Of a stretch of DNA of 34,740 nucleotides, positions 3,125 through 6,235 are shown piece by piece. Numbering within the stretch: position 1 is the stretch's first letter; each line of letters starts with the position of its first letter. This DNA comes from an uncultured beta proteobacterium (GTDB lineage: Bacteria > Pseudomonadota > Gammaproteobacteria > Burkholderiales > Burkholderiaceae_C), in the NCBI GenBank assembly GCA_903834645.1, contig CAILKA010000372.1:1-34740 (forward strand), in the 5' to 3' direction. A program made the translations under genes and the position numbers. The notes under the pieces are model-generated. The model searched no databases. It had not been told where the DNA came from and was given only the letters and a program-made list of their open reading frames with translations.

Positions 3125-4372
3125 GTGATCCCCGCCCCGCTTCGTTCCTGCCCCGATTTCCTGCGCCTGTGGTGGTCGCGCCTGGCCAGCGTGTCGGCCG
3201 GCCAGATGCTGATGGTGGCCATAGGCTGGGAGGTCTACGACCTGACCGGCTCGGCCTGGGACCTGGGCCTGGTGGGCCTGCTGCAGTTCGCCCCCGCGCT
3301 GGTGCTGATGCTGCCGGCGGGGCATGTGGTGGATCGCTTCCACCGCGCCACCATCGTCTCGTGCTGCCTGGCCGCGCAAGGCGCGGTGGCGGCGGTGCTG
3401 TGGCTCAGCCCCTTCGAGGGCCTCTCGCAGCGCACGCTGCTGCTCGGCGCATCGCTTGTGCTCGGGGCCGTGAAGGCCTTCCAGATGCCTGCCCAACAGG
3501 CGCTCGTGCCCCTGCTGGTGCCCAGCGAGCTGCTGGCACGGGCGCTGGCCTTCAGCTCCGCGGGCTTGCAGGCGGCGATCATTGCCGGGCCGGCGCTCGG
3601 GGGCTTCCTGTACGTGGGCGGGTCGGATGCGGTGCAAGCCGCCTGCGTGCTGCTGTTCGCCGTGGCAGCCGCGCTGGCATCGCGGGTGCGGCACGCGCCG
3701 CCCGCCCGCAGCGAGCCGGCCAGCTTGCACACGCTGCTGGCGGGCGTGCGCTACGTGCGCAGCACCCCGGTGGTGCTCGGCGCGATCTCGCTGGACCTCT
3801 TTGCCGTGCTGCTGGGCGGCGCCACCGCCTTGCTGCCGATCTTTGCGAAGGACATCCTGCACGTCGGGCCGATCGGCATGGGCTGGCTGCGCGCCGCGCC
3901 TGCCATCGGCGCGCTGCTGGTGTCGCTGGCGCTGTCGCGCTGGCCCATCGAGCGCGGCGCCGGCACCAAGCTCTACGCCGCCATCGTGGTCTACGGCCTG
4001 GCCACCCTCGCCTTCGGGCTTTCCACGTCCTTCGTGCTGTCGATGGTCGCACTCGCGGTGACGGGCGCGGCCGACATGGTCAGCGTCGTCGTGCGCCAGA
4101 CGCTGGTTCAGCTCGAGACGCCCGATGCAATGCGCGGCCGCGTGAGCGCCGTCAATTCGGTCTTCATCGGTGCGTCCAACCAGCTCGGCGAGTTCGAATC
4201 GGGCGCCACCGCAGCATGGCTCGGGCCCGTGGGCTCGGTGGTGCTGGGCGGGCTGGGCTCGATCGCCGTGGCAGCCTTGTGGTGGCACGCCTTCCCGGCA
4301 CTCGCCCGGCGCGACCATCTGGCCGCGCCGCAAGCGAGTGCCTCCCCGCCTCAGGCCGCCTCGTCGGGCTGA
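3125..4372 (+). CDS. MFS transporter (MFS_3/EntS-like)
   Basis: 415 aa, GTG start. Multi-TM; begins LRLWWSRLASVSAGQMLMVAIGWEVYDLTGSAWDLGLVGLLQFAPALVLMLPAGHVVDR; contains the MRGRVSAVNSVFIGASNQLGEFESG pattern of this MFS subfamily. Confidence 0.9.
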   Translation: MIPAPLRSCPDFLRLWWSRLASVSAGQMLMVAIGWEVYDLTGSAWDLGLVGLLQFAPALVLMLPAGHVVDRFHRATIVSCCLAAQGAVAAVLWLSPFEGLSQRTLLLGASLVLGAVKAFQMPAQQALVPLLVPSELLARALAFSSAGLQAAIIAGPALGGFLYVGGSDAVQAACVLLFAVAAALASRVRHAPPARSEPASLHTLLAGVRYVRSTPVVLGAISLDLFAVLLGGATALLPIFAKDILHVGPIGMGWLRAAPAIGALLVSLALSRWPIERGAGTKLYAAIVVYGLATLAFGLSTSFVLSMVALAVTGAADMVSVVVRQTLVQLETPDAMRGRVSAVNSVFIGASNQLGEFESGATAAWLGPVGSVVLGGLGSIAVAALWWHAFPALARRDHLAAPQASASPPQAASSG

Positions 4373-5328
4373 GCGGCGTGCTTGATCTTGGGCGCAGTGC
4401 GCAGGCTCAGTGCCATCGTCGCAGCGAGGATGGCCACCACCACGCCCAGTGACACGGCCACCGGGATCTTGTAGATGTCGATCAACATCATCTTCGTGCC
4501 GATGAACACCAGGATCACGGCCAGGCCGTAGCTCAGCAGGTGGAACTTCTCGGCCACCGCCGCCAGCAGGAAGTACATCGCGCGCAGGCCGAGGATGGCG
4601 AAGATGTTGGAGGTGAGCACGATGAAGGGGTCCATCGTGATCGCGAAGATCGCCGGGATCGAGTCCACCGCGAAGATCACGTCGGTCAGGCCCACGAGCG
4701 CGATCACGAGCAGCAGCGGCGTGGCGATGCGCTTGCCGTTTTCCACCGTGAAGAAGCGCTCGCCGTCGAAGCCCTTGCTCACGGGCAGCACGCGGCGCAG
4801 CAGCTTGAGCGCCGGGTTGCTCTCCAGGTCGGGTTCCTGGCCGGCGGCCCACCACATCTTGATGCCGGTGAGGATCAGGAAGGCGCCGAACACGTACAGC
4901 ACCCAGTGGAAGTGCGCGATCAGCCACGAGCCCACCAGGATCATCACCGTGCGCAGCACGATGGCGCCGATGATGCCGATCATCAGCACGCGCTTCTGGT
5001 AGGCCGGCGGCACCGCGAAGTACGTGAAGATCATCAGGAAGACGAAGATGTTGTCCACCGCCAGGCTCTTCTCGATGAGGTAGCCGGTGAGGAACTCCAT
5101 GGCCTTGGTGTTGGCCATCGCCGTGCCGTGGTCCTGCTGCACGGCCCACCAGAACAGGCCGTTGAAGAGGAAGCTCAGGGCCACCCAGATGAGCGACCAG
5201 TTCAGCGCCTCCTTCACGGAGACGGTGTGCGCGCCCTGCTTGCGCAGCACGACGAAGTCGACGAACAGTGCGACGAGCACGGAAATGACGAAAACGGCCC
5301 ACAGCCAGGCCGGCGCGATGGTGTCCAT
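4351..5328 (-). CDS. TerC family membrane protein (Alx/TerC-like, probable Mn2+ exporter)
   Basis: ATG at 5328 gives MDTIAPAWLWAVFVISVLVALFVDFVVLRKQGAHTVSVKEALNWSLIWVALSFLFNGLFWWAV..., TerC-typical 'AVDNIFVFLMIF' and 'VDSIPAIFAITMDPFIVLTSNIFAILGLRAMYF'. SD GGAGGA upstream. A yybP-ykoY riboswitch precedes it, which is a characteristic association. Confidence 0.94.
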   Translation of the reverse strand: MDTIAPAWLWAVFVISVLVALFVDFVVLRKQGAHTVSVKEALNWSLIWVALSFLFNGLFWWAVQQDHGTAMANTKAMEFLTGYLIEKSLAVDNIFVFLMIFTYFAVPPAYQKRVLMIGIIGAIVLRTVMILVGSWLIAHFHWVLYVFGAFLILTGIKMWWAAGQEPDLESNPALKLLRRVLPVSKGFDGERFFTVENGKRIATPLLLVIALVGLTDVIFAVDSIPAIFAITMDPFIVLTSNIFAILGLRAMYFLLAAVAEKFHLLSYGLAVILVFIGTKMMLIDIYKIPVAVSLGVVVAILAATMALSLRTAPKIKHAAQPDEAA

Positions 5329-5360
5329 GGACACTCCTCCAGGAAGGTTGAAGATCGCGC

Positions 5361-5475
5361 CGAAAGGTCTTGCGGGCTGGGGTGGAGCCTGCGGTCCCGG
5401 GAGGCCGGCGGGCGCCAGCTTCCGTATTGACGGGGGGCCGCGGCAGCCGGGCGGCTGCTTGCTACTCCCCTTTCG
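5361..5475 (-). ncRNA. yybP-ykoY family (Mn2+-sensing) riboswitch in the terC 5' leader
   Basis: Minus-strand sequence CGAAAGGGGAGTAGCAAGCAGCCGCCCGGCTGCCGCGGCCCCCCGTCAATACGG...CCCGCAAGACCTTTCG. It contains the family's conserved blocks GGGGAGUAGC, GUCAAUACG and GCAAGACCUUU. P1 is a perfect 7-bp stem, CGAAAGG (5469-5475) with CCTTTCG (5361-5367). It sits 32 nt upstream of the terC ATG. Confidence 0.93.
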
Positions 5476-5584
5476 ACGGGGCGGATTGTGGCGGGTGAGG
5501 CCATGCCCCCACATTGCGTAGGTGCATGGGTCACGTGCAGCGCATGCCTGAACGCAGGGCCAGCCTTCGCTATGCTGAGCCGGG

Positions 5585-6235
5585 ATGGACCGCCCCTTCC
5601 TGCTCCACGCCGATGCGCACTGCCTCGTCGTCGACAAGCCTGCCGGGCTGCCGGCGGTGCCCGGGCGGCCGCAGGCGCTGCATGACTGCGCCTACAGCCG
5701 CGTGTGCGCCTTGCACGCCGACGCCCGCGTGGTGCACCGCCTGGACATGGCCACCTCCGGGCTGCTGCTGTTCGCGCGCGGCGAGCACGCGCAGCGCGTG
5801 CTGTCGCGCGCCTTCGAGCAGCGGCGCGTGCGCAAGCGCTACCTCGCCGTGGTGCACGGGCAGATGCGCGTGCCGGCCGGCGAGATCGAGCTGCCCATCG
5901 GTGCGCACTGGCCCGACCGGCCGCGCCGACACGTGGACTTCGAGAAGGGCCAGGCGGCGCTGACCCGCTACCGGGTGCTGGCCCTCGAGGATGGGCGCAC
6001 CCGTGTGGAACTCGAGCCCGTGACCGGCCGCACGCACCAGCTGCGCGTGCACCTGGCAGCCATCGGCCATCCGATCCTGGGCGACACGCTCTACGCGCCC
6101 GCCGCCGTGCAGGCGGCCGCGCCGCGGCTGCTGCTGCACGCAAGCGTGCTGGCCTTTGCGCACCCGGGCACGGGGGAGATGTTCGAGGTGTGCAGCGAGG
6201 CGCACTTCGGGCTGCCTATGATCGACCCATCATGA
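5585..6235 (+). CDS. RluA family pseudouridine synthase
   Basis: 216 aa. Contains VVDKPAGLPAVPG, the catalytic-motif region RVVHRLDMATSGLLLFAR, and PVTGRTHQLRVHLAAIGHPILGDTLY, all diagnostic of RluA/RluC-type synthases. Confidence 0.93.
   Translation: MDRPFLLHADAHCLVVDKPAGLPAVPGRPQALHDCAYSRVCALHADARVVHRLDMATSGLLLFARGEHAQRVLSRAFEQRRVRKRYLAVVHGQMRVPAGEIELPIGAHWPDRPRRHVDFEKGQAALTRYRVLALEDGRTRVELEPVTGRTHQLRVHLAAIGHPILGDTLYAPAAVQAAAPRLLLHASVLAFAHPGTGEMFEVCSEAHFGLPMIDPS

Follow-up and report, generated by a model that had tools for sequence, protein, structure and literature searches.

An alx-type yybP-ykoY leader, a predicted Mn2+ riboswitch, precedes terC in a Burkholderiales family and is missed by the Rfam model RF00080

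The window, a 34,740-nucleotide stretch of DNA from an uncultured beta proteobacterium, carries a terC/alx gene on its minus strand, preceded by the structured leader itemized in Table 1. The encoded protein contains a TerC domain (PF03741; 176 bits), shares 59% identity with E. coli Alx across 304 residues, and is assigned to TIGR03718 at 410.5 bits (cut-off, 246.4), a family whose name, R_switched_Alx, itself records riboswitch control. From the orthology to Alx we infer a link of terC to Mn2+ rather than to tellurite, as had an earlier reading of the same DNA from its sequence only. The terC start codon sits inside a palindrome, GTGTCCATGGACAC (5321-5334, minus strand), a context that is frequent among close relatives. 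A divergent pseudouridine-synthase gene, whose start is at 5585, lies on the other side of the same intergenic region, and open reading frames span the leader on each strand, as that sequence-only reading had stated.

Table 1. Features of the terC leader and gene. A2 and A3 are the alignments of 24 and 87 leader sequences described in the text.
Feature	Position	Strand	Remarks
-10-like CACAAT	5485..5490	-	position conserved just 5' of P1 in relatives, read by eye
alx-type yybP-ykoY aptamer, whole	5358..5480	-	four helices; 29 nt 5' of the terC ATG
P1 switch helix, 5' strand GTCGAAAGG	5469..5477	-	98.1% of cells paired in A2; compensatory changes in 8/9 pairs in A3
L1 loop, 5' strand (GGAGUA, part of the GGGGAGUAGC block)	5463..5468	-	invariant columns in A2
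P2 hairpin GCAGC/GCUGC	5443..5458	-	both-side changes in 5/5 pairs
P3.1, 5' strand (GCGG 5441-5438 and CCCG 5434-5431)	5431..5441	-	pairs kept 92.7-100%, compensatory changes
L3 metal-site loop UCAAUAC (predicted)	5424..5430	-	consensus UCANUAC; length equals that of E. coli alx UCAUUAC
P3.2 hairpin	5400..5423	-	both-side changes in 8/10 pairs
P3.1, 3' strand (CGGG 5399-5396 and CCGC 5394-5391)	5391..5399	-	pair counts in A2 and A3
P4 hairpin GGCU/AGCC	5375..5389	-	both-side changes in 5/5 alignment pairs
GCAAGA (closing GC and L1 3' strand)	5368..5373	-	invariant in A2
P1, 3' strand CCTTTCGGC	5359..5367	-	partner of GTCGAAAGG; 9 bp, one G-U
CGGCGCGAT, proposed OFF-state arm	5354..5362	-	shares bases with the P1 3' end; complement of 5319-5311
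Shine-Dalgarno GGAGGAG	5340-5334	-	from the sequence
terC/alx gene	4351..5328	-	325 aa; ATG at 5328
ATCGCGCCG, terC codons 4-6	5311..5319	-	partner of 5362-5354

Three hallmark blocks, GGGGAGTAGC (5470-5461), GTCAATACG (5432-5424), and GCAAGACCTTT (5373-5363), follow one another on the minus strand, accompanied by CGAAAGG beginning at 5475 and CCTTTCG ending at 5361, all where the sequence-only reading had placed them. A search for the three blocks in this order gave a single match in the window and none in 100 dinucleotide shuffles. The helix formed by the two heptamers, previously described as a perfect 7-bp P1, is present, but its real extent is 9 bp, including one G-U pair. The 3' heptamer ends at 5361, 32 nt 5' of the ATG, with the Shine-Dalgarno (SD) sequence in between, as had been proposed.

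An RF00080 match had also been predicted, and this prediction failed. The Rfam yybP-ykoY model gave no match at the gathering cut-off in the window, none at E ≤ 10 on 5250-5600, nothing at the place of the terC leader in a genome-wide search, and no match in any of 12 related terC leaders; as far as Rfam 15 is concerned, the predicted riboswitch is indeed unannotated. Elsewhere in the same genome, RF00080 matched at 90.7 bits the leader (L001; G000:C37:628-804) of a UPF0016/GDT1-type gene; some members of this family export Mn2+. On E. coli K-12, RF00080 from Rfam 15 missed the alx leader (L148:4370-4504) at E ≤ 1 and scored the mntP leader (L149:2462-2558) at 41.6 bits, under its gathering cut-off of 45. 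Because the miss extends to E. coli alx, a leader studied by experiment, the silence of RF00080 at terC is a blind spot of the model and not a refutation.

A genome scan with the window TerC protein yielded 80 close relatives, and the three blocks were found upstream of terC in 73 of them (74 loci counting the window). The seven block-less relatives comprise two that are cut by a contig end (L045 and L081, the latter retaining the 3' part) and five without the leader motif. Three of these five (L014, L025, and L027) have in common an alternative block, ACTTCG..AAAAACCG..A ... TTTATYCGAAGT ... GCACACTG, at most ~130 nt upstream of terC, for which Rfam gave no match.

The consensus of the leader reads GTCGAAAGGGGAGTAGC - P2 - GCGG..CCCG-UCANUAC-GG - P3.2 - CGGG.CCGC - P4 - GCAAGACCTTTCGGC. 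For A2, 24 sequences were aligned with MAFFT without structural information, and a single hand-written structure was tested by pair counts. In A2, 89.6% of cells were paired and both-side changes numbered 98, compared to 33.6 in shuffled alignments (0/500); the structure was derived from these same sequences, which favors the percentage paired and, less so, the both-side changes. The covariation score was 0.299 versus 0.144 after shuffling (0/500), and control structures shifted by 1 to 3 columns paired only 36 to 48%. In A3, whose 87 sequences were aligned to the covariance model R1 described below and are thus biased toward the structure, 91.9% of cells were paired, both-side changes reached 641 versus 181.8 shuffled, and the score was 0.511 versus 0.164. 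Both-side changes occurred there in 34 of 39 pairs, and compensatory changes in all helices but the 2-bp step beside L1. Both alignments therefore show a four-way junction of P1 to P4 with covariation, and the L1 hallmarks of the class, GGGGAGUA and 3' AGACC, are present and invariant in A2. Minimum free energy folding of the single window leader was not informative (z, -0.98). RNAalifold on the plain MAFFT alignment recovered the structure only in part, since the lengths of P2 and P4 differ between sequences, and the hand-written structure was used instead.

Covariance models were then built from this branch only. R1, made from 24 terC leaders, scored the window, itself part of the seed, at 110.5 bits; it gave 23.8 bits for E. 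coli alx and 26.7 bits for the classical leader L001 of the same genome. R2 was made from 87 loci; its training set contained neither E. coli sequences nor leaders of the GDT1/mntP type. It recovered alx (43.5 bits; E, 2e-9), mntP (30.2 bits; E, 8e-6), and L001 (34.1 bits), the E-values being rough owing to a short calibration, and it found most of the classical RF00080 loci offered. On the five terC loci without the motif, R2 gave no match. The recognition of both E. coli leaders and of most classical loci tested by these models supports the family, strand, and target gene that the sequence-only reading had named. At E ≤ 0.001, R1 matched 52 of 201 sampled genomes of the same family, a lower bound given the strict filters, and all 29 same-family loci examined (L162 to L190) precede TerC; two further TerC genes in the window's own genome had no R1 match. 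R2 gave few matches class-wide, where 12 candidates were scored per genome, so that little is said about absence. The aptamer stands before a probable gene of Mn2+ homeostasis (TerC/Alx), and, judged by its sequence, its covariation, and its homology to the E. coli alx and mntP leaders, the leader is a member of the yybP-ykoY (Mn2+) class, of an alx-type branch.

A Mn2+ ON switch with switching in the P1 region, probably at the level of translation, is very likely at the terC leader. The terC/alx mRNA would start near 5480 with the aptamer at its 5' end; such a start is suggested by the -10-like hexamer, which is conserved a few bases 5' of P1 in most relatives, and a scan for sigma-70 consensus promoters found no site. 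Mn2+ bound between L1 and L3, with alkaline pH assisting as it does in E. coli, would keep P1 closed. Without Mn2+, the P1 3' strand and the next bases (CGGCGCGAU) would pair with AUCGCGCCG in terC codons 4 to 6, a pairing that would enclose the SD and start codon and bring translation down. Mn2+ would in this manner raise TerC/Alx, a probable Mn2+ exporter.

Several comparisons bear on the proposed OFF-state pairing. In the window, the complementarity between 5362-5354 and 5319-5311 is perfect over 9 bp. GGCGCR is present at 34 loci, and at every one of them the base at the variable position is complementary to the one opposite it (30 G-C and 4 A-U). Own leader/start pairs averaged -20.4 kcal/mol versus -17.7 kcal/mol for swapped pairs (0/5000), a statistic that ignores relatedness. 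The complementarity to codons 4 to 6 may in part be coincidence, as conserved Ile-Ala-Pro codons are involved. At other loci the P1 3' strand, taken together with adjacent bases, is complementary to the SD region: CCUUUCGGCGC to GCGCCGAAAGG at the SD in L010, CUUUCGGCAUGA to UCAUGCCGAAGG, the SD segment itself, in L053, and CCCGCAAGA to UCUUGCGGG at the SD in L023 and L034.

The same aptamer could instead act mainly on transcription, through termination, intrinsic or Rho-dependent, in the first part of terC, an alternative that we regard as unlikely. In ViennaRNA, a model without metals and tertiary contacts, the SD was unpaired with a probability of 0.25 when the aptamer was enforced and 0.26 when the outer P1 was forbidden. 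SD access being alike in both states, release of the SD does not follow from folding energies alone, which speaks for transcriptional control, as do one weak terminator-like stem and its T-run (5312-5295) and the Rho-dependent control reported for E. coli mntP (PMC11647493). On the other hand, the interval from P1 to the SD holds no terminator-like element, the stem falls within the coding region and its T-run is only 4, and complementarity of the P1 3' strand to the SD/start region recurs across lineages. The translational platform envisaged by the sequence-only reading hence keeps its plausibility through this recurring complementarity, though not through folding energies, and a predicted translational ON switch is the best-supported mode for the terC leader.

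As for the ligand, among the closest known systems is the E. coli alx leader. It has in common with the window the helix layout, GGGGAGUA, AGACCUU, the L3 length (UCAUUAC versus UCAAUAC), and the position before an Alx homologue. Unlike in the window, its P4 is longer, and its aptamer is followed by a strong AGACCUUGCC/GGCGAGGUCU hairpin, in place of which the window has its complementarity to codons 4 to 6. The classical member L001 likewise contains the GGGGAGUAGC, GUCA..AC, and AGACCUU blocks and the four-way junction, and it is matched by R1 and R2, whereas its L3, UCAACANAC, is two nt longer, its P3 3' side is CAUGGCG, and its P1 is GUCA/UGAC. In the shorter L3, UCANUAC, the A that follows UC is conserved, and alx has it too; in crystal structures the invariant Mn2+-contacting L3 adenosine is A41 in L. 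lactis and A48 in X. oryzae (PMC6754395), whose counterpart in the shorter loop may be this or another A. A loop that lacks two nt relative to the classical members seen, in a branch that RF00080 fails to recognize, might mean that these aptamers sense a different divalent ion, or pH only. This is improbable, given that the E. coli alx loop is equally long, that alx-lacZ reporters respond to Mn2+ as well as to alkaline pH (PMC9603457), and that the target belongs to the Alx family. It is a tentative and rather doubtful idea that the short-L3 aptamers form a separate, Rfam-invisible branch that acts on a larger set of genes (TerC of the Alx and YjbE types, distant NhaD-like antiporters, and LysR-type regulators), tuned unlike the classical sensors, for example to alkaline pH and Mn2+ combined.

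Very little speaks for another RNA family altogether. DUF3085 RNA (RF02959) gave a match of 27.5 bits at 5339-5424 (E, 0.0074), which was rejected as chance, being below the gathering cut-off of 40.6 and absent from the 12 related terC leaders. The terC RNA motif (RF03067) occurs upstream of terC genes; its 59-position model had no match at the window leader. Neither family explains the covarying four-helix layout, and either assignment is highly improbable. Literature searches on the terC motif, and on yybP-ykoY with NhaD, gave nothing direct. Finally, the intergenic region also serves the divergent gene, and a conserved non-regulatory leader or DNA-only conservation (a promoter, or the pseudouridine-synthase gene itself) might be entertained, but the compensatory base changes in the helices effectively exclude this, and the aptamer stands before TerC at every same-family locus examined.

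Alx-type aptamers were also seen before other genes. Five of them (L151, L153, L157, L159, and L161; minus strand, about 1500-1630) precede distant NhaD-like Na+/H+ antiporter genes, L157 and L161 being two copies ~1.8 kb apart on one contig; the NhaD-like calls rest on TIGR00775 scores of 59 to 73 bits, far under the cut-off, in the two tested and were made by eye in the others. Three precede LysR/CbbR-like regulator genes on the minus strand (L119, 1421-1521; L128, 1456-1555; and L154, 1501-1645), an identity given by HMM for L119 and L154, and L127 may be another such locus. YjbE-type TerC genes, called by HMM at L131, L158, and L160 and by eye at L197 and L075 (minus strand, 1055-1225), follow a further five; at L075, two divergent TerC-family genes each have an aptamer of their own upstream.

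The riboswitch class is already known; what the analysis usefully adds is that RF00080 misses the alx-type branch, including its E. coli prototype. Because RF00080 does not annotate alx-type leaders, surveys of Mn2+ regulation based on it will miss them; the covariance models obtained here find E. coli alx as well. A conserved set of predicted Mn2+ riboswitches stands before terC in one large Burkholderiales family, unannotated by the standard Rfam model, and TerC there, often labelled as tellurite resistance, gains a testable role in Mn2+ and alkaline stress.
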